Part shown: piece by piece, positions 2,699 to 14,769 of the stretch | Numbering within the stretch: position 1 is the stretch's first letter | Layout of the letters: every line of letters starts with the position of its first letter | NCBI RefSeq assembly: GCF_014202635.1 | Contig: NZ_JACHHD010000001.1 | Span: forward strand, 62,001-126,000 | From: Faecalicoccus acidiformans | GTDB taxonomy: Bacteria; Bacillota_I; Bacilli_A; Erysipelotrichales; Erysipelotrichaceae | DNA length: 64,000 nucleotides | Reading direction: 5' to 3' | The notes under the pieces: generated by a model | Told to the model about the DNA's origin: nothing | Database searches by the model: none | Seen by the model: only the letters and a program-made list of their open reading frames with translations | Made by a program: the position numbers and the translations under genes

Positions 2699-2708
2699 GG
2701 TGAATACC

Positions 2709-3725
2709 ATGAAATTAAAACGTGAATTTGCTGATTTTTATAAAGAAATTAGGATTGATAGCGAGACTCATGCTCTAAAAGAGAAGAGAGAAATTTTAGA
2801 AGATGATATTAAATCAAAGCTCCCTGGCATTCTTGTGGATCACAATATCAGTATTAGTAAAACTGACATCAGAATGATTGATCAAGGTAGCTATAAGTAC
2901 AACACTACGATTAAGGATGATATCGTTGATCGCGATGTAGCTGTTATGATTCCGCTGGATACTTCTACTAATTCAGATCCGCGAATAATCAAAGGATATT
3001 TACGTGATGCCATCAATATTTCGCCCCGTACGGTAGCAATTAAAGAGCCTTGTGTCAGGGCTTCGTATTATGAGAATGGAAAAGAATGGCTTCATATTGA
3101 TTTACCTCTTTATGCAACAGACGGTAGTTGTGTCTATCTTGCAAGGGGAAAAGAGTTTAGCAACAGCTATTCTTGGGAAGATGCAGATCCGGATGGCTTA
3201 AACGATTATCTGTGTGGCCAGATCAATGGCAATGATCAGCTACGCAGAATCATATGCTTTATTAAAAAATGGCGGAATGAGCAGTATTCCGGATCAACGA
3301 ATGATCATGAAGTTCCTCCGAGCATAGGGTTGACACTTCTTGCCTGCGACTGCTTTTCTGCACAATCCACGATTGAGGGAGACGATGACTTGCTTTCGTT
3401 GCAAAAGACAATGAAAGGCATTCTGGACAAGTTCACGTATACGGCAGACAGTAGCGGCAATCTGATAAAGACGATAACAAAATATCTTCCTGTAACTCCA
3501 TATACGGACGTTTTTAAGAAGATGAAAGAAAGCAGCTCATACATAACAACGTTTTATAATCGACTTTCAAAAGCGGTTGATAATCTCACAAACGCTGTGA
3601 ATGTTGAGTCCGCACACGATGCCGGCGAGTATGTTCAGAAGGTGTTGGGAGATAGTTTTACAGTTCCAGCCAAAGAAGCAGTTGCGGCATCTGCGCAAAA
3701 CAAGCGAGAACATAGTTTTGGATAA
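2709..3725 (+). CDS. CBASS CD-NTase (cyclic oligonucleotide synthase)
   Basis: Predicted cGAS/DncV-like nucleotidyltransferase that makes a cyclic di- or trinucleotide alarm signal on phage infection. The 338-residue protein shows the GS motif (GSYKYNT, residues 60-66), a metal-binding D-x-D (D74, D76 in DRDV) and a third acidic residue in HIDLPLY (D131). The ATG at 2709 was chosen because AAGGTG lies six bases upstream; that site overlaps the stop of the preceding cysteine desulfurase, which suggests coupled translation. A GTG at 2700 sits inside the SD sequence and is less likely. The protein ends in HSFG: a C-terminal glycine is what Cap2 conjugates to targets in type II CBASS. The nucleotide product cannot be told from sequence. 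Confidence 0.88.
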   Translation: MKLKREFADFYKEIRIDSETHALKEKREILEDDIKSKLPGILVDHNISISKTDIRMIDQGSYKYNTTIKDDIVDRDVAVMIPLDTSTNSDPRIIKGYLRDAINISPRTVAIKEPCVRASYYENGKEWLHIDLPLYATDGSCVYLARGKEFSNSYSWEDADPDGLNDYLCGQINGNDQLRRIICFIKKWRNEQYSGSTNDHEVPPSIGLTLLACDCFSAQSTIEGDDDLLSLQKTMKGILDKFTYTADSSGNLIKTITKYLPVTPYTDVFKKMKESSSYITTFYNRLSKAVDNLTNAVNVESAHDAGEYVQKVLGDSFTVPAKEAVAASAQNKREHSFG

Positions 3726-3728
3726 GAT

Positions 3729-5396
3729 ATGACTGTTAAAGAGATTTTAGAATCATATGAGGAGATCACTGTAGAAGAGCAAGTTCTTGAAGGAGTGCTT
3801 TTCTTTACTCTGTTTGAGAAGAAATTCCTGTTTTTTGCTCCTGAGAAAGATGACCCTTCTTCGATGGCTACGGTATATCTTTACGATGACAATCTACTGG
3901 ACTTTCCACATGTCATGCTCCGGGAAAACTCAATTATCGATGGAAAATACCTCCCAAATGGAACATATAGATGGATATGTCTTTTTGAACAAGAGAGCAT
4001 AGTAAACACGATTGTTTCATATGAGGATAAGATTTTCGATTGCGTTGACCGGTTAATTGAACTGCTATCCATGACTTCAGTAGAGCGTGAAAGAGAATTT
4101 CAGAAAGAATTCATGTACTACTGGAACAGCGAATCTGCTGGAAATAACAAGGTCTCTGTATATTTAGAGCAAGCTACGCAATTCACAGAATTGGATGCGT
4201 TCTACGGCGAAAAAAAAGTCCGCTTAATTCAGAAAGGGCTAAATCTCTCCGATATAGACGACAGAGATAAGTCTGAGCGGAAATGGACTCATCATATTGA
4301 AAATGATGTGTTCTATATTCCAGTAACAGATAGCCGGGGCATTCTTCCACCGCACAGAGGTTACCAATGGACTGCGAATGAAGTGCAAAACATCGTTTAC
4401 GGAAAGCAAATAGAACATATCAGCGACGACACATTTCAGTCGATTAAAAGCAAGGTCCCCAAAACGCAAGATGTTATTCTTGTTTTCGGAATGAGAACAG
4501 ATCTTTCAAACGTTTATTTTGCCTTGAAAGTAAAGTGTAAGAACAGCAACAATCATACATTGCTAGAGAAATTACTCTCAGATATTGTAACGCTTGAGTC
4601 TCTCCCTACAGAGAGAAAGGATTACTCATATTTGTGTGAGCAAATAGGAAATGATATAGGATTGCTGAACAAAAGAATTTTACTTATTGGTGCTGGTTCT
4701 TTGGGAAGTTATGTCGCATTTGAGCTTGTGAAGAACGGTGCAAAGTACTTGAAGATATATGATGGCGACAAGTTTGAAGAAGAAAATGTTCTTCGTTGGG
4801 CATACGGAGGCATTGGCAAGGGCTCAAACAAAGCAACAACTATTCAGATTTTGCTAAAGTTGCTTCATCCAGAAATCAATATAGAAGTATGCGATGCAAA
4901 TATAAGCGCGCATTCTCTGATGGAGGAAATCAGCAACAAGGATTTGATCATATTTACTATTGGAAGTAGCGACGAACAAATAAAACTGAATAGTGTATTA
5001 AAAAGAGCAAACTGTCCCATACCTGCAATCTTTGTTTGGCTTGAGGAAGGTGGAACTAATAGCCATATTCTATTTGTAAATTATCAGATGCCTGGATGTT
5101 TTGAATGTCTGTATACAGATTCAAACGGAGAACTTGTGAATAATAGAGCTAGGAAGAATTCATCGGCAGCTACGGAAAATAACATAATTCGAAATGGTTG
5201 TGGAGGTACAAGGGCTGCCTATGGAACAGCGATTCTTCTTAGAACAACAGCAGCCTTATTGGATGTAATACGAGATTATGATGAGCATAAGATTATGACG
5301 AATACTCTGATAGATATAACACCAGAAAGAATCACTATTTCTGACACGGAATTCCCGATGGAGGCATGTAATTGTTGTGGAGATACGGGCAAATAG
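3729..5396 (+). CDS. cap2: CBASS Cap2, E2-E1 fusion ubiquitin-like ligase
   Basis: Cap2 activates and conjugates the C terminus of the CD-NTase to cellular targets, priming it for signalling. The 555-residue protein has an N-terminal E2-like region (conserved GTYRWICLF near residues 82-90) and a C-terminal ThiF/E1 domain. The E1 part starts with the nucleotide-binding loop ILLIGAGSLGS (about residues 316-326). It continues with a candidate E1 cysteine in NGCGGTRAAYG (about 490) and two cysteine pairs, CFEC (about 457) and CNCC (about 549), that resemble the E1 zinc site. It begins three bases after the CD-NTase stop and overlaps cap3 by 20 bases. Order and domain make-up match type II CBASS well. 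Confidence 0.88.
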   Translation: MTVKEILESYEEITVEEQVLEGVLFFTLFEKKFLFFAPEKDDPSSMATVYLYDDNLLDFPHVMLRENSIIDGKYLPNGTYRWICLFEQESIVNTIVSYEDKIFDCVDRLIELLSMTSVEREREFQKEFMYYWNSESAGNNKVSVYLEQATQFTELDAFYGEKKVRLIQKGLNLSDIDDRDKSERKWTHHIENDVFYIPVTDSRGILPPHRGYQWTANEVQNIVYGKQIEHISDDTFQSIKSKVPKTQDVILVFGMRTDLSNVYFALKVKCKNSNNHTLLEKLLSDIVTLESLPTERKDYSYLCEQIGNDIGLLNKRILLIGAGSLGSYVAFELVKNGAKYLKIYDGDKFEEENVLRWAYGGIGKGSNKATTIQILLKLLHPEINIEVCDANISAHSLMEEISNKDLIIFTIGSSDEQIKLNSVLKRANCPIPAIFVWLEEGGTNSHILFVNYQMPGCFECLYTDSNGELVNNRARKNSSAATENNIIRNGCGGTRAAYGTAILLRTTAALLDVIRDYDEHKIMTNTLIDITPERITISDTEFPMEACNCCGDTGK

Positions 5397-5925
5397 CAAA
5401 TGTGTAAAAATAGCTCTTCCGAATGGCAAAGTGGTTGACGTTCTCAGTCCAGTTATGGATGAAATTTGTAAATGGATCCAGGATGATTGTTCTAAGCCAG
5501 AAAGCGGTGGATATATAGTAGGATATCAACATGAACATACGGGAAATATTTCTTTAGAAGCTGTATCACATCCGCATCTTATGGATATAAAGAATCGCTT
5601 AAGATTTGATATAAGAGATCCACGGCATCAACTGTTCCTAAAAAAGGCCAAACGTCATAAGAGCTATTATATGGGCGTATGGCATACACATCCACAAACA
5701 ATTCCGGTGCCGTCAGATATTGATTGGAATGACTGGAATGAAACCATCCACTCTGATAAGACAGGGTGCCAATATGTCTTTTTTGTCATTGCTGGTACTG
5801 ATGAATGGCGACTATGGGTTGGGGATTTTATAACCGGAGAAATCCAGGAAGCTTTTGAATGTGAAAAAGATACGAACGGAATCTATATAAAAGAGAGCGT
5901 GTTGCAAGATGAAGAAACTTTGTGA
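5377..5925 (+). CDS. cap3: CBASS Cap3, JAMM isopeptidase
   Basis: Cap3 is a JAB/MPN+ metalloprotease that removes CD-NTase conjugates formed by Cap2. The 182-residue protein carries the full JAMM signature: a glutamate in PESGGYIVG (E42), the zinc histidines in GVWHTHP (H103 and H105) and the S-x-x-D following (S113, D116). The start is a GTG at 5377 inside the end of cap2, with GGAGG about 12 bases upstream; no better in-frame start is visible. It overlaps the next gene by 17 bases. All catalytic residues are present. Confidence 0.9.
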   Translation: MEIRANSKCVKIALPNGKVVDVLSPVMDEICKWIQDDCSKPESGGYIVGYQHEHTGNISLEAVSHPHLMDIKNRLRFDIRDPRHQLFLKKAKRHKSYYMGVWHTHPQTIPVPSDIDWNDWNETIHSDKTGCQYVFFVIAGTDEWRLWVGDFITGEIQEAFECEKDTNGIYIKESVLQDEETL

Positions 5926-6733
5926 AACGATTTCAAGTAACGGAAGACAGATATTAGAGATAATAGCTCTAATAATTGTGACTTCTATACCGTGGGTTGT
6001 TGATTTACAGGAGATATTCAAGGAGTATCTGACTAATCAGCCCATTTCTCCGGATGATTTTTTTTGGCAAGCCGCGCTTAGAATGGGCAAACCCGTCGCC
6101 TCTGTTATATTATTTTTTGCCGTTCTTATAGTAATAAGGAAGTTCAATCAGGGATTCGTTATGAATCGTAAGCGTGTATATCACGACTACTGTTATGCAT
6201 GGTATTGGTTCTGTGCAAAAATCCTTGAAATTAAGAGCTGCGATTTAGTGCTCGTACCAATCCATATGCAATTCAAGTTGGTAATAAGAGCTACTTTTCA
6301 AGAATACCCACTGGATGAAACAGAATATCCGGTTGTTGAGAATGAATCAGACAGTAAAGTATTAGAAACGAATCAAGAGGATCCGACCAGGGAAATCAAC
6401 CTTGTGTTGGAAGACACGTATGAAATTGAAGCGCGACAGATTCCGAAATCGAAACAAGGATATAGGACAATCAAGATCAGCAGAAACAGTGGCGCAGACA
6501 GTTCTCGTCATTTTAGCCAAAAATACATTGAGGCAATAATCAAGTGTATCAGAGACTTAAAGGGGAAAGTGTCAGTAAACGTGTATGCCACAACTAATCC
6601 AATGAATACAAAGCATATCGCAAAAAGAGCATTTGGTTTAGGTGAAAGAGGAAATGTTGAGCATCTCTATGTGTTCCAACAGAGTAAGGACGGAAGAAGA
6701 CGCTTTGAGGAAAAAGGCAAAAAGATTTTCTGA
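5909..6733 (+). CDS. Probable CBASS effector with two membrane segments
   Basis: Last gene of the CBASS string, in the position normally held by the effector that the cyclic nucleotide activates. The 274-residue protein has two predicted transmembrane helices, about residues 16-34 (EIIALIIVTSIPWVVDL) and 57-76 (ASVILFFAVLIVI). A basic YHDYCYAWYWFC segment follows, and then a soluble domain of about 170 residues. I do not recognise that domain. Its pattern (INLVLEDTYEI, then TIKISR, then a helix and VSVNVYATT) could be a nucleotide sensor of the SAVED or two-TM-beta kind. By analogy with other two-TM effectors it would disrupt the inner membrane. The effector role is inferred from position and topology, not from homology. 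Confidence 0.65.
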   Translation: MKKLCETISSNGRQILEIIALIIVTSIPWVVDLQEIFKEYLTNQPISPDDFFWQAALRMGKPVASVILFFAVLIVIRKFNQGFVMNRKRVYHDYCYAWYWFCAKILEIKSCDLVLVPIHMQFKLVIRATFQEYPLDETEYPVVENESDSKVLETNQEDPTREINLVLEDTYEIEARQIPKSKQGYRTIKISRNSGADSSRHFSQKYIEAIIKCIRDLKGKVSVNVYATTNPMNTKHIAKRAFGLGERGNVEHLYVFQQSKDGRRRFEEKGKKIF

Positions 6734-7536: not shown

Positions 7537-7911
7537 ATGCAAATTAAATATGATTTGGACAAAGTCGGCATTGGCAGCCGCCTTCAGGAAGAGCGCATTC
7601 GAGCAGGGCATACGCAGGAATCACTGGCGGAGGCCATGGGAATCACCGACAAATATATCAGTAAGGTGGAAAACGGGGCTGCGGCTCCATCCCTTTCGTA
7701 CGTTATGAAGTTTTCCGACATTACCAGGACCGATGTTTGTTATCTGCTGCTGGGGATCAAAGCAAAGACTGATGTTACAGCAGCCAGCATGGTCATGGAA
7801 GCAACAGCGCCGTATGGCAAATCGCAAACCAAGTTGTCAAAGAAGGGTCAGAAGATCTGCGATGAGATGATGAAAAAGATCAAAGAGGTACTGGAAGAAA
7901 ACAATATCTGA
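7537..7911 (+). CDS. XRE-family helix-turn-helix regulator
   Basis: A 124-residue DNA-binding protein with a Cro/CI-type helix-turn-helix at about residues 7-62: IGSRLQEERIRAGHTQ, then AEAMGITDKYISKVENG, then PSLSYVMKFSD. The C-terminal half is short and charged with no recognised domain. The ATG at 7537 was chosen because AGGAGG lies just upstream; the GTG at 7528 overlaps that site. Terminators flank the gene (7359-7402 and 7980-8026), so it looks like a single-gene unit. It probably controls the integrative element or itself; target sites are unknown. Confidence 0.85.
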   Translation: MQIKYDLDKVGIGSRLQEERIRAGHTQESLAEAMGITDKYISKVENGAAAPSLSYVMKFSDITRTDVCYLLLGIKAKTDVTAASMVMEATAPYGKSQTKLSKKGQKICDEMMKKIKEVLEENNI

Positions 7912-8076: not shown

Positions 8077-9471
8077 ATGCTCAGTAAACTATTCTCGAAA
8101 AAGCAGAGGACAGAGCCTCAGCTGGAGAAGCTAACCGGAGATTACCGGATGGTTCCTGAAGAGGACATGCGGCGCTATGAGTTTCAGGAGAAACTGTTTC
8201 GGACGATCGTGTCGGTTGAAGCAGATGCTCATAACGAAGAAAATCCCATGGCGATTGCTGTCCGTGTCATGAAGGCATGCTGTGATTTTTATGATGCTGA
8301 CTGGTGCGGCATTCTGATTGCAGACCTGCAGACGCAGGTGTTCATTCCTGAGATCTGGTACGACTCGGAGATTGGACCGATGCAGGATACGCTGTTCAAC
8401 GATATCGAATTTACGGAAGAATTTGCTACTTGGGCACAGCACCTGATTGAGCAGAAGCCGCTGATCATTCCGGATGTTGAACAGATCCGTGAGAGCAAAC
8501 CGAAAGAGTATGAGGCATATCAGCGGTTGGAAGCCAGGTCGATCATGGGTGTTCCTTTTGGTCAGCATCCCTTGGGCTTCATGGTCATCCGTAACATGAA
8601 GCAGTATACGGACCGGCCGGAACCGCTGCAGCTTGCCTGCTTTGTTGCCATGATGATGTTGGAACAGATCCGGCGCACCAGAATGGAAAAGCTGACAAAG
8701 ATGCATGATGAGGACGACGGCAGGTTCCGCATCCGCTATAACATCCTCGGACCGCATAATTTTGTAATTGACGGAAAAGAGATCTATGAACAGGATCTGC
8801 CGCATCCGAACCGGCGTGCATGGATCATCATGCTTTACATGGTTCTGCATAAGCGTCCGGTGGATCAGCAGAAGCTGATTGCCGACAACTGGCCGGATGA
8901 AGAAGTCGATACAGCCAGGAACAATATGCGGTAGGCGATCTTCCGGCTGCACAACGACCTGGCAGCGTATCATGACGTGAAGGTGATCGATACCAGAAGC
9001 AGGATGATGGATTTCTCCGGTGAAGTGAATGTGACAACAGATGCGGATGAGATGGAGGATCTTTATAATCGCGCAAAGAATCTGCCGGACGGGGATGACA
9101 AGATCATTCTTCTGAAGAAGGCCTTTGAGCTGTATCGCGGCAGACTGTTCATCCAGGGAGAGGATGACATCGGAACCTGGCTCTATGCATATACGACGCA
9201 TTACAATCAGGTCTACGTCGATTTGACGTCGGCGCTGCTGACGACACTCGGTCATATCAAGGACTATCGCTGCATTATGGATTACGGGCCGAGAGCGCTG
9301 GAGATCGAGCCCGGCATTCTCACAGCCTACTACTGGATCATCATAGCGGCAGATGAAACAGGCAACAGTGTGGCACGGGAGAAGTTCCTCCAGAAAGCAG
9401 CTGAGGATCTGATCGATGAGGAAAATGAGAAGCTGATGAAGCTGCTGGCTCTGCAGAACCATATGAGCTGA
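8077..9471 (+). pseudogene. GAF domain plus SARP/BTAD-type activator, split by an in-frame amber codon
   Basis: The frame runs from ATG 8077 (GGAGGGGG upstream) to a TAG at 8932-8934 and then stays open in the same frame to TGA at 9469-9471. The first 285 residues hold a GAF-like sensor domain (about 45-205) and the start of a winged helix (FVIDGKEIYEQDLPHPNRRAW onward). After the stop, AIFRLHNDLAAY completes the recognition helix of the winged HTH. A BTAD-like helical repeat region follows (YNRAKNLP, KKAFELYRGRLF, YGPRALEIEP). Read through, the product would be about 464 residues. The stop most simply reflects a CAG-to-TAG change in an otherwise intact gene. Downstream lie phased GTAAC repeats of the kind SARP proteins bind. 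Alternatives are amber read-through or two separate polypeptides; a restart at ATG 8977 would lack the full DNA-binding helix. Confidence 0.8.
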
Positions 9472-9490: not shown

Positions 9491-9594
9491 AGTAACAGGA
9501 AAGTAACAGACTGTGTAACGGCAAAGTAACAGGCAAAAAAGATTATTTTTGGAGTAACAGAATAGTAACGGCCTCTGTAGCAGGCCAAGTAACA
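9491..9594 (+). promoter_or_regulatory. Two blocks of helically phased GTAAC direct repeats (candidate SARP operator)
   Basis: GTAAC starts at 9492, 9503, 9515 and 9526, then at 9554, 9565, 9577 (GTAGC variant) and 9589. Within each block the spacing is 11-12 bases; the blocks are 28 bases apart. Most copies read AGTAACA or AGTAACG. SARP/BTAD activators bind heptamer direct repeats at 11-base spacing ahead of a -10 element. Nine bases after block one is GATTAT (9541-9546), a possible -10. The coding gene just upstream is a GAF/BTAD regulator, which fits. Confidence 0.7.
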
Positions 9595-9664
9595 CCCGCC
9601 CGGTAGGGTAGCCAAGGCAAAAACAAAATGCTTTGGAAGCCTTAGAACGGACGGGTGATTTTTT
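9594..9664 (+). terminator. Large hairpin followed by T run (terminator or attenuator)
   Basis: ACCCGCCCG (9594-9602) pairs with CGGACGGGT (9648-9656) with one G-T wobble. An inner AAGGC/GCCTT helix is present and GATTTTTT follows. It could end the regulator transcript or attenuate a transcript started at the GTAAC repeats. Confidence 0.55.
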
Positions 9665-9825
9665 GGAAGAAACATCGCAGCAGGAGGCGGTTGTTTTTGC
9701 AGGAAACTGTGAAAGCAGCCGCCTCTTATTTTTATGCAAACAGATCGGCGTTCGATGCCGGTCGCCTCCGGTTTCAGGGATTTGCAGCTGAAACACAAAT
9801 CTCAAACGAAATCGTAGGAACTGAC

Positions 9826-10122
9826 ATGAGAACAACAAAATTCAATATGAAAGACTTTGGCCTGAGACTGCGCAAGCTGAGACAGGCCTGCGGATTAACC
9901 CAGGAAGAGTTCTGCGACGTGATCGGGATCAGCGATACCCATTACCGGAAGATCGAAGCCGGTACCAGGACCGGATCGCTGGAGCTGATCGTGGAGATGG
10001 CGGAGTACTTCCATGTGAGTCTTGATTATCTGCTGCTGGGAGAGACAGAATCCAACAGCAAGGCGAAGAGGGATATCTTGGCTGTCATCGAGAGCCTTAC
10101 AAGGATTGCCCGGGAGCTGTAA
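9826..10122 (+). CDS. Small XRE-family helix-turn-helix regulator
   Basis: A 98-residue protein that is almost all helix-turn-helix: FGLRLRKLRQACGLTQEEF, then DVIGISDTHYRKIEAG, then SLELIVEMAEYFHVSLDYLLLGE (residues about 11-68). The ATG at 9826 follows GTAGGAA; the open frame extends upstream to 9655 but that part is not protein-like. It lies directly after the GTAAC repeats and the 9594-9664 hairpin, so the repeats may control it. It converges on the AbiE genes, with a strong shared terminator between. Confidence 0.85.
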   Translation: MRTTKFNMKDFGLRLRKLRQACGLTQEEFCDVIGISDTHYRKIEAGTRTGSLELIVEMAEYFHVSLDYLLLGETESNSKAKRDILAVIESLTRIAREL

Positions 10123-11854: not shown

Positions 11855-12253
11855 CCGTAGGAGGGGTTTCCCTCCTACGGCGACATGGATCTTTGAAAAC
11901 TGAATATCATTCATCAGATACATCCCTGTACGGGCGTGAAAATGTCAGCCGGTTGAAACATACGCAATGACTCCGGAAGGATGAGCGAGAAATATGCCGT
12001 TCATATATGCAGGACAGCTACCTGCAAGGCGATGAAACGTACGGGCACAATGGTACTTCTGTCCAGCCACAGCCCCGGGTGGAACCGGGATCACGCAATG
12101 GGGGCAGCTGCGGGAGAACCTCGCGGGGGTGAGAGGCCCATGGAGCTGAAAGCATTCAGCCGTCTGATGACTTCCCGGTCACTTGGGTGTCGAGGATAAA
12201 TAAGTGAAAAGGAAATGAACGTTACGCCGCCGGCCTTATTACGACCGGCGGTG
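11855..12253 (+). ncRNA. Candidate structured non-coding RNA ahead of the toxin-recombinase genes
   Basis: The 620 bases between abiEi and the mazF-like gene hold no convincing protein but a run of local hairpins. These are CCGTAGGAGGG/CCCTCCTACGG (11855-11865 with 11870-11880), GCAGG/CCTGC (12009-12013 with 12021-12025) and CCCGG/CCGGG (12074-12078 with 12085-12089). Next are CCTC/GAGG (12119-12122 with 12133-12136), GCTGAA/TTCAGC (12145-12150 with 12155-12160) and CGCCGCCGG/CCGGCGGTG (12225-12233 with 12245-12253). A series of stable helices without coding potential suggests a structured leader or regulatory RNA. I cannot name a known family. Confidence 0.4.
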
Positions 12254-12290
12254 ATACATATACAGACATTTCTGTAGAGAGGAATTGCCA

Positions 12291-12665
12291 ATGAAAGAGT
12301 TTATCTACCGCAAGGGCGATGTATTCCTTGCGGATCTTGGTATTCCTCATGGCTCAGAGCAGGGCGGCCGCCGTCCGGTCGTGATCATTCAGAACGATGA
12401 CGGCTGCGTGTATTCTCCAACAGTAACGATGGTGCCGATGACAACGGCGATCAAGAAACCTTTCCAGAAGTCCCACTACATTCTCCGGTATTCGGACTGC
12501 ATCCGTTACCGATCGATGGTTGAGGCAGAGCAGATCCAGACTATTGACAAGGACCGCATCATTCGGCGGATCGGTCATCTGGATCCAAGGGATATATCCG
12601 GAATCGAAGAGGCCATGAGGAATCATTTCGGCTTCGATATCCCGGACTGTATTGAGGCTCCGTAA
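12291..12665 (+). CDS. PemK/MazF-family toxin (endoribonuclease fold)
   Basis: MazF-type proteins cleave mRNA at short sequences. The 124-residue product has the family N-terminal core GDVFLADLGIPHGSEQGGRRP followed by VVIIQND, the PTVTMVPMTT strand, and a MVEAEQIQTID segment, all in the usual order and at normal length. ATG 12291 follows AGAGGAA; a TTG two codons earlier is less likely. No antitoxin of the MazE type is adjacent. The next small gene does not resemble one, so this may be a solitary or element-control MazF homologue, as often seen beside large serine recombinases. Confidence 0.85.
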   Translation: MKEFIYRKGDVFLADLGIPHGSEQGGRRPVVIIQNDDGCVYSPTVTMVPMTTAIKKPFQKSHYILRYSDCIRYRSMVEAEQIQTIDKDRIIRRIGHLDPRDISGIEEAMRNHFGFDIPDCIEAP

Positions 12666-12894: not shown

Positions 12895-14769
12895 ATGGCA
12901 AAAGTCGATGTAATCAAGGCTCAGGTATCTGTGACTGACCGCAGAAGACGCAGCAAATCCATAGAACGAAAGCGCGTTGCGGCATACTGCCGGGTCAGCA
13001 CGGACAGTGAGGATCAGCTGAACAGCTACAGATCGCAGGTTCAGTATTATACAGATAAGATCAGCGAAAACGTGGACTGGATGATGGCCGGAATCTATGC
13101 GGATGAAGCGATTACCGGCACCCAGGTGGCAAAGAGAGAAGGCTTCCAGAAAATGATCAATGACTGCATGAGCGGTCAGATTGATATGGTCATCACGAAG
13201 TCGATCTCGCGCTTTGCCCGCAATACATTGGACACACTGAAGTATGTCCGGATGCTGAAGGAGAAGGATATCGCCGTCTTCTTCGAAGTTGAGAATATCT
13301 CTTCCAACGTCAAGAAGGGACTGGCAATGAAGATGTCCCGTGGCGAGATCGTGGGCTTTGCCGGAGCGCTTGGATATGACTATGATCCGGAGACAAAGAC
13401 CATCTCAGTGAATGAGGAAGAGGCGAAGGTAGTCCGGTATATCTTCAAACGCTATATCGAAGGAATGGGAGCGCATGTAATCGCCAGGGAGCTGGAGCAG
13501 ATGGGAGCGCTCACCAATCGCGGCAACAAGAGCTGGTACGATTCAACCGTTCTCGGGATCATCAAGAATGAAAAGTATAAAGGGGATTTGCTGCAGGGAA
13601 AGACATTCACAGTCGATCCGATCACAAAACGCAGACTCGGAAACCTGGGAGAGGTTGACCAGTATCTGATGAAGGATCATCATGAGCCGATCATTTCAGA
13701 AGAGATGTGGGAGCAGGCGCAGGCGATCCTGAAAAGAAGAACCGTAGTCCATGAGAATTCAAACGTAGATCCGAATTCATACCGGGAACAATACAGCCGG
13801 AAATTCGCTTTCAGCTGTATGGTCAAATGCGGCTTCTGCGGAGCATCACTGACACGGCGTTCCTGGCACAGCGGATCCAAGTATCATAAGAATATCTGGC
13901 TGTGCATTTCCTCTTCCAAATACGGTAAGAAGAACTGCCCGGAAAGCAAGGGCATTGCTGAGGAAGTCCTGGAAAGTGCATTCGTCGAATCCTACCGGAT
14001 GATCACGAATGATCATAAGGATGTCCTGGAAGAATTTCTGCAGAGAACAGAAGAGGAGCTGCATTCCGATGCGACGCTGCAGGAGATCGATCGCGTAAAA
14101 AAAGAACTGAAGCAGCTTGATCAGAAGATGCAGCGTCTTCTGGATATGCATCTGGAACAGCAGATCGACTTCGGTACCTATGAGGACAAAAAGCTGGAGA
14201 TCATCAAGGAGCAACAGCTGAAGACAACAGAGCTTAAAAGACTACAGGGTGAAGCTGATATCGAGAAGGATTTACGCAAGAGGTTGGACGCAATGCGCAA
14301 GCTCCTTTCCGATGCTCCTATACTCAAGGAATTCGACAGAAATGTTTTTGAAAGCATCGTTGAAAAAGTTATTGTAGGCGGGTATGATGACGAGGGAAAT
14401 GCAGATCCGTCGATGATCACATTTGTCTATAAGACCGGGTTTGAAGACAAGAAAAAGGGTGACGATTACAAGCCTCCGAGGAGGAATTCCAAGTCTAAAA
14501 AATTGTCGTCACAACCTACCGACGACAGCAGCAAATTGTCACAACAAGCTATTGACGTTGCATATAGAAAGTGTGGTACTTTTATCCCGCAAAGCTTCGG
14601 ACAGTGTTTTGAAGAGATCATCGAATGGATAAAAATATTTATCAGATTGCAGAGCAGATACTCCAATTGCATCAGAAGGCCTATGAGATTTATTTGCCGC
14701 TCGTTGAAGATGTGTGCAGCCGAACTGTGTCAGAAGAAGAATTGTCGCATTTGTTGGATGATCTATTGA
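12895..14769 (+). CDS. Large serine recombinase, probably internally deleted
   Basis: Site-specific recombinase of the TndX/TnpX type that would excise and integrate the element. The catalytic serine is S35 in AAYCRVSTDSEDQ, and SRFARNTLDTL follows in the resolvase domain. The recombinase domain (about 145-270), a zinc ribbon (CGFCG with a distal CISSS-NCPES pair) and a coiled coil (about 370-470) are also present. At FFEVENISSNVKKG (about 128-142) the roughly 25 residues that normally separate the end of the catalytic domain from the long helix appear to be missing. The C-terminal 50 residues (SRYSNCIRRPMRF onward) are not family-like and overlap another gene in a different frame. It is probably inactive; family assignment is sure. 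Confidence 0.88.
   Translation: MAKVDVIKAQVSVTDRRRRSKSIERKRVAAYCRVSTDSEDQLNSYRSQVQYYTDKISENVDWMMAGIYADEAITGTQVAKREGFQKMINDCMSGQIDMVITKSISRFARNTLDTLKYVRMLKEKDIAVFFEVENISSNVKKGLAMKMSRGEIVGFAGALGYDYDPETKTISVNEEEAKVVRYIFKRYIEGMGAHVIARELEQMGALTNRGNKSWYDSTVLGIIKNEKYKGDLLQGKTFTVDPITKRRLGNLGEVDQYLMKDHHEPIISEEMWEQAQAILKRRTVVHENSNVDPNSYREQYSRKFAFSCMVKCGFCGASLTRRSWHSGSKYHKNIWLCISSSKYGKKNCPESKGIAEEVLESAFVESYRMITNDHKDVLEEFLQRTEEELHSDATLQEIDRVKKELKQLDQKMQRLLDMHLEQQIDFGTYEDKKLEIIKEQQLKTTELKRLQGEADIEKDLRKRLDAMRKLLSDAPILKEFDRNVFESIVEKVIVGGYDDEGNADPSMITFVYKTGFEDKKKGDDYKPPRRNSKSKKLSSQPTDDSSKLSQQAIDVAYRKCGTFIPQSFGQCFEEIIEWIKIFIRLQSRYSNCIRRPMRFICRSLKMCAAELCQKKNCRICWMIY

Follow-up and report, generated by a model that had tools for sequence, protein, structure and literature searches.

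A helically phased heptamer array as candidate operator of a SARP-like regulator in integrative elements of rumen and gut Bacillota

Eight heptamers lying directly behind the gene of a SARP-like regulator in Faecalicoccus acidiformans are arranged in two helically phased blocks, and probably constitute the composite operator of that regulator, which would drive the leader-gated XRE2/recombination end of an integrative element. The array lies in a stretch of 64,000 nucleotides, hereafter the window, whose own numbering is used throughout; the genes of the module, the repeat blocks, the promoter hexamers and the leader features described below are all on its + strand. SARP-type activation is known mainly from actinomycete antibiotic clusters. 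The preliminary description of this DNA had proposed a cognate SARP/BTAD operator in mobile DNA of Bacillota, a proposal that is now supported in silico by the phasing of the repeats, the 8-bp spacing to a -10-like hexamer, the fold of the regulator and the joint divergence of operator and DNA-binding domain.

Block 1 (9492-9532) consists of GTAACAG/GTAACGG units starting at 9492, 9503, 9515 and 9526, a spacing kept in homologues, and block 2 (9554-9595) of units starting at 9554, 9565, 9577 and 9589, with steps of 11, 12 and 12 bases. All starts and steps given earlier were correct; of the eight GTAAC units claimed, however, the one at 9577 (GTAGCAG) reads GTAGC, so that seven GTAAC units and a single variant remain. 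Among 30 simulated sequences of 64 kb, matched to the window in dinucleotide composition, the longest GTAAC run was two, and four successive copies of any 5-mer at 10-12 base steps never arose, compared to one such run in the window. These simulations, together with conservation across homologous loci, rule out a chance repeat. When a second array or genome-wide targets were searched for in the 1.77-Mb genome, none was found besides the array at 9492-9595.

A single scan covering 84,980 species genomes recovered 22 relatives of the regulator (54-95% identical), which come from Lachnospiraceae, Solobacterium and other rumen/gut Bacillota MAGs; a viral_contigs search gave two records. Further copies emerged from a leader-signature search (loci L077 and L078, plus the decayed L079 and L081), and a covariance-model search revealed a distant paralogue (L103/L107) located 33 kb off on the same contig as L045. 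The element family is rare: a search for leader and array in 195 genomes of relatives found no second genome, and one in 397 genomes of the family of the L045 host found that host only. Plasmids and annotated phages were discarded as carriers, none being close, and four unannotated gut phage records hold relatives of the regulator protein only (20-26%). Matches to the R1 model at L099, L100 and L104 were also set aside, as reading them disclosed neither an array nor an XRE2-like leader nearby.

Full arrays in homologous loci have the same layout of four plus four units, with steps of 11, 11 or 12, and 11 bases in the first block, an inter-block gap of 28 or 38 bp, and steps of 11, 12 and 12 in the second. 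The gap measures 38 bp in the L039/L042 group and 28 bp otherwise. Units themselves differ by lineage, being GTAACAG in the window and L037, GTCACAG in L039, L041 and L042, and [GA]TAACGG in L043, L045 and L077. Across 64 units the information is confined to the heptamer (0.8-1.5 bits at positions 0-6, no more than 0.45 outside). L077 and L078 show the standard layout with small offsets, one unit of L078 being degenerate, while the paralogue L107 carries the heptamer CAAACGC with a 28-bp inter-block gap and 12-bp block 2 steps. The motif search near regulator genes of other elements thus found two blocks of four again, with the same phasing.

The array follows the regulator in full-length loci with enough flank, except where the two are separated by inserts (about 2.2 kb in L042 and about 10 kb in L041 and L084) or where part has been deleted. 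Homologous loci that keep the regulator but lack the repeats would have spoken against a functional link; instead, array and exact phasing are retained despite diverged units, and the exception, L035, has suffered a visible deletion in which leader and XRE2 disappeared along with all but two of the units next to its regulator. Arrays without a linked regulator occur in L095, L085 and L107. In L107 (11395-12189) an in-frame fusion joins XRE1 to the BTAD part at the C-terminus of the regulator, most of which has been deleted, with array and XRE2 retained. Two further loci are decayed solitary copies: L085, which holds L081, has lost three block 2 units and starts its XRE2 with TTG, and in L086, which holds L079, block 1 is gone, as are the loop sequence and XRE2.

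In the rule described for AfsR, direct repeats lie one turn apart, the 3' repeat is 8 bp from the -10 and each protomer takes one repeat (PMC10936776). Both features of such operators recur here, namely direct repeats of a heptamer at intervals of about 11 bp (steps of 11-12, with information limited to the heptamer) and a 3' repeat 8 bp upstream of a -10-like hexamer. In the window this hexamer is TAGGGT (9604-9609, designated P2), conserved and exactly 8 bp past the last heptamer. At the equivalent position every full array has TAnnnT, in the form TA[GA][AG]GT in the main family and TAGATT in L107; the lineages other than that of the window read TAGAGT, TAAAGT or TAGATT. A -10 had earlier been placed behind block 1, and the hexamer GATTAT (9541-9546), a possible -10 of that block, is indeed present 8 bases past the heptamer GTAACAG; nevertheless, it is kept in the clade of the window only, other lineages having AAAATT, AAGATT, AATATT or AAAAAA there. 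Because the block 1 hexamer varies and that of block 2 is TAnnnT throughout, GATTAT was rejected as the conserved, main -10, and the conserved promoter follows block 2 instead. Transcription from P2 is predicted to start near 9616. The -10 hexamers are weak, which counts against the operator/promoter reading, as do the 28/38-bp inter-block gap and the 12-bp steps, which exceed the classical 11 bp, and also the arrays without regulator, the 10-kb separation in L041 and L084 and the premature stop in the regulator of the window.

The regulator gene (8077-9471) shows the order GAF, OmpR-type DNA-binding domain and BTAD if its one in-frame stop codon, a TAG at 8932-8934, is ignored. This codon replaces an invariant glutamine of the recognition helix, and all full-length homologues covering the site are open there, the homologues being 53-95% identical to the protein. 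Either this copy has decayed or the assembly is wrong at this point; barring an assembly error, the regulator of this genome is probably truncated inside its DNA-reading helix and hence inactive. Assignment of the gene to the SARP/BTAD type, as first proposed, holds in view of an AfsR/EmbR-like fold and of Pfam BTAD matches in relatives (6 of 12 members, best 3.4e-6, Trans_reg_C reaching merely 0.11). In an AlphaFold model of an intact homologue (12 homologues used, mean pLDDT 78.5), fold search matched residues 27-206 to GAF folds and residues 209-464 to EmbR (2FEZ, Z 16.7) and AfsR (8hvr, Z 16.6; 8k60, Z 16.5). Fold search was needed to recognize this likeness because a sequence search for a solved homologue matched TPR designs alone, at the C-terminus of the regulator; searches of NCBIfam and PHROGs with the regulator gave nothing above chance. 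An OmpR-type DNA-binding domain is thus followed by BTAD as in SARPs, but it is not N-terminal, the GAF domain (27-206) coming first, and the protein is therefore filed as SARP-like, with a variant architecture as in DnrS.

Whether this protein or a neighbour reads the array can be judged from how the units diverge. Among seven lineages, those more alike in the part of the regulator that binds DNA have the smaller operator distances (rho -0.60, exact Mantel p 0.014, a small test in which several domains were compared), and no such correlation is seen with identity of GAF (rho -0.12), XRE1 (0.04) or XRE2 (0.13). As the lineages are few, the correlation is supportive and falls short of proof. 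XRE proteins frequently bind beside their own genes, and both XRE1 and XRE2 are encoded within the conserved module, so that the array might be bound by one of them instead of the SARP-like regulator and serve, say, as its repressor operator. However, the usual sites of XRE/HTH_3 proteins are dyads, whereas the array units are all direct repeats, and unit divergence follows neither protein; the window and L037 have one unit in common with XRE1 just 30% identical, and L039 and L042 likewise share a unit with XRE2 40% identical. Binding by an XRE protein is accordingly unlikely, and the reading of the array as a SARP operator is well supported by the sequence comparisons.

Downstream of the array lies a conserved, highly structured leader. 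In RNA reading through from upstream, hairpin B (9593-9657) is predicted to pair the promoter spacer CCGCCCG with GGACGGGTG, the Shine-Dalgarno (SD) sequence of a short ORF, a pairing that shows compensatory changes and includes the SD-like GGACGGGTGA. Its loop, GCAAAAACAA (9617-9626), is conserved in all full lineages, is complementary to the left arm of the terminator (9691-9700) and would be the 5' end of the P2 RNA. In L107 both loop and terminator arm are altered, yet 9 of 10 positions pair, although this is a single distant paralogue and, in one of the two directions, the non-cognate combination pairs almost as strongly. The terminator itself, hairpin C plus T-run (9683-9735), was identified by terminator scan and has the GC-containing hairpin, T-run and conserved pairing expected of an intrinsic terminator or attenuator, its stem undergoing compensatory replacement in L107. 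Farther on, hairpin D (9765-9818) is predicted to sequester the XRE2 ribosome-binding site. This site (9812-9819) reads CGTAGGA in the window and CGGAGG in other lineages, a second sign, besides the TAG, that the copy in the window may be decaying.

The possible leader ORF (9663-9791, 42 codons) spans the terminator, begins with TTG (ATG in the L037 group) and in most other lineages overlaps the start of XRE2. Its start, SD and frame are conserved. As a conserved protein it was not retained, since main-family substitutions by codon position (135/133/176) are unconvincing and give a weak coding signal; the L107 paralogue is more suggestive, changes in its AVVFAG stretch being mostly third-position. 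The whole-leader covariation score was reached by none of 500 shuffles and also exceeds all slid controls, while the number of doubly changed pairs does not stand out (89 of 500 shuffles); the L045 leader folds with a z of -9.5. In 10 of 10 sequences the SD is predicted to be less paired when the RNA starts at P2 than when it reads through from upstream, the gain in accessibility being small in L045, L043 and L037. A known riboswitch or RNA family was discarded, as Rfam gave no family at gathering score over array and leader and matches at a relaxed threshold were at chance level.

Given such structure 3' of the array, the GUAAC repeats might themselves work in RNA, as tandem protein-binding sites or a structural leader element, and a dyad around the third unit of block 2 (9570-9586) seems, by eye, conserved. 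On the other hand, helical phasing at 11-12 bases and a gap shift of about one turn (28 to 38) fit DNA, the units stand in non-equivalent RNA contexts, and the predicted P2 start falls 3' of both blocks, which together make an RNA role decidedly improbable. The dyad in question is small (GGCCT..AGGCC), its arms seem compensatory between lineages by eye, and it sits 5' of the predicted P2 start.

Module order is conserved across lineages as XRE1, regulator, array, leader, XRE2, PemK and recombinase. In the window it comprises XRE1 (7537-7911, Pfam HTH_3 1.5e-12), the first gene of the module; XRE2 (9826-10122, HTH_3 3e-14), directly 3' of the leader and conserved in position; a PemK/MazF toxin gene (12285-12665, PemK_toxin 3.2e-23), conserved between XRE2 and recombinase; and a large serine recombinase (12895-14769, Pfam Recombinase and Resolvase). 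The pemK RNA motif (Rfam RF02913) is found 5' of the PemK gene at 12047-12143, here inside a recombination module. AbiE toxin genes or a ParB-like gene may intervene between XRE2 and PemK. Recombinases vary by member, from a Tn916-type Xis with tyrosine integrase to one to three large serine recombinases; in L092 and L058 three different genes of the latter kind stand in series after PemK. Defence cargo was noted at 2700-6733 and in L064: a type II CBASS operon of the window (with a DncV-like nucleotidyltransferase, ThiF and a SUa-2TM effector) lies 5' of the module, and DndB/DndC-like and DptFGH-like genes, named from reading translations, lie farther 5' in the same genome.

Phased direct repeats are known in accessory recombination or replication sites (integrase arm-type sites, iterons, partition sites) and the array is close to the recombination end of the element, but such a role is highly unlikely, given that the recombinase gene of the window is several kb off, the 8-bp relation to the -10-like hexamer is fixed and the architecture is identical with Tn916-type tyrosine integrases and unrelated large serine recombinases. 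Such independence of recombinase type is hard to reconcile with arm sites of an integrase and favours a role in the control of transcription.

As transcriptional control by the SARP-like regulator, the switch could operate as follows. Regulator monomers would align on the GTAAC[AG]G heptamers, one at each helical turn, and block 2 would set them 8 bp before the weak -10 TAGGGT (9604-9609), replacing a -35 as AfsR does. Activated transcription would begin near 9616 and enter the leader, in which a short ORF overlaps a terminator and a hairpin covers the next ribosome-binding site; the leader may thereby gate XRE2 and then the PemK/recombinase end, with a possible bearing on excision. In read-through RNA from upstream, hairpin B would form, hide the SD of the short ORF and favour termination. 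If transcription from P2 starts about 7 bases past the -10, P2 RNA would instead open with GCAAAAACAA and be devoid of the left arm of hairpin B, and its 5' end, being complementary to the terminator arm, could allow escape from termination. SD accessibility and the complementarity of loop and terminator arm are the grounds on which this attenuation model is proposed. More tentatively, it is possible that the leader represents a new class of promoter-dependent attenuator, in which the start chosen by an activator decides the RNA fold and gates the recombination end upon a signal sensed by the GAF domain. With its regulator truncated, the switch is probably stuck in the genome of the window itself.

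SARP promoter geometry is thus found as the conserved control region of integrative elements in Bacillota of the rumen and gut, elements that bring defence genes along as cargo and exchange one type of recombinase for another. Operators that diverged together with their reader provide natural regulator/operator pairs with differing heptamers, usable for tests of SARP specificity, and transfer control in these elements becomes directly testable.

Among known systems, AfsR-type SARPs come closest in mechanism, and DnrS, likewise from a mobile element, comes closest in the order of its domains; the present analysis adds the conserved leader and its setting beside a recombination module. AfsR at the afsS promoter (PMC10936776) resembles the family in a fold that combines OmpR-type DNA-binding and BTAD domains (Z 16.6), in direct repeats one turn apart and in a 3' repeat 8 bp before a weak -10. 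It differs in that the family described here has a GAF domain before the DNA-binding domain, an array of eight heptamers in two blocks with an attenuator-like leader RNA 3' of it, and a location on a Bacillota integrative element without an antibiotic cluster. EmbR of Mycobacterium tuberculosis (2FEZ) matches in DNA-binding plus BTAD fold (Z 16.7), but has a C-terminal FHA domain instead of the N-terminal GAF. With the Tn916 Xis/Int module, several members have Tn916-Xis and Integrase_DNA Pfam matches in common, whereas their regulatory part is formed by the SARP-like regulator, operator array and leader, and some carry serine recombinases. The text on DnrS makes no mention of a direct-repeat operator (PMC5748679). 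DnrS of Thermus thermophilus, with an N-terminal GAF and a C-terminal BTAD, is likewise a GAF-then-BTAD regulator encoded on a mobile element, the nitrate respiration conjugative element, where it controls denitrification genes with DnrT (PMC5748679), while the regulator of the present family adjoins a recombination module.
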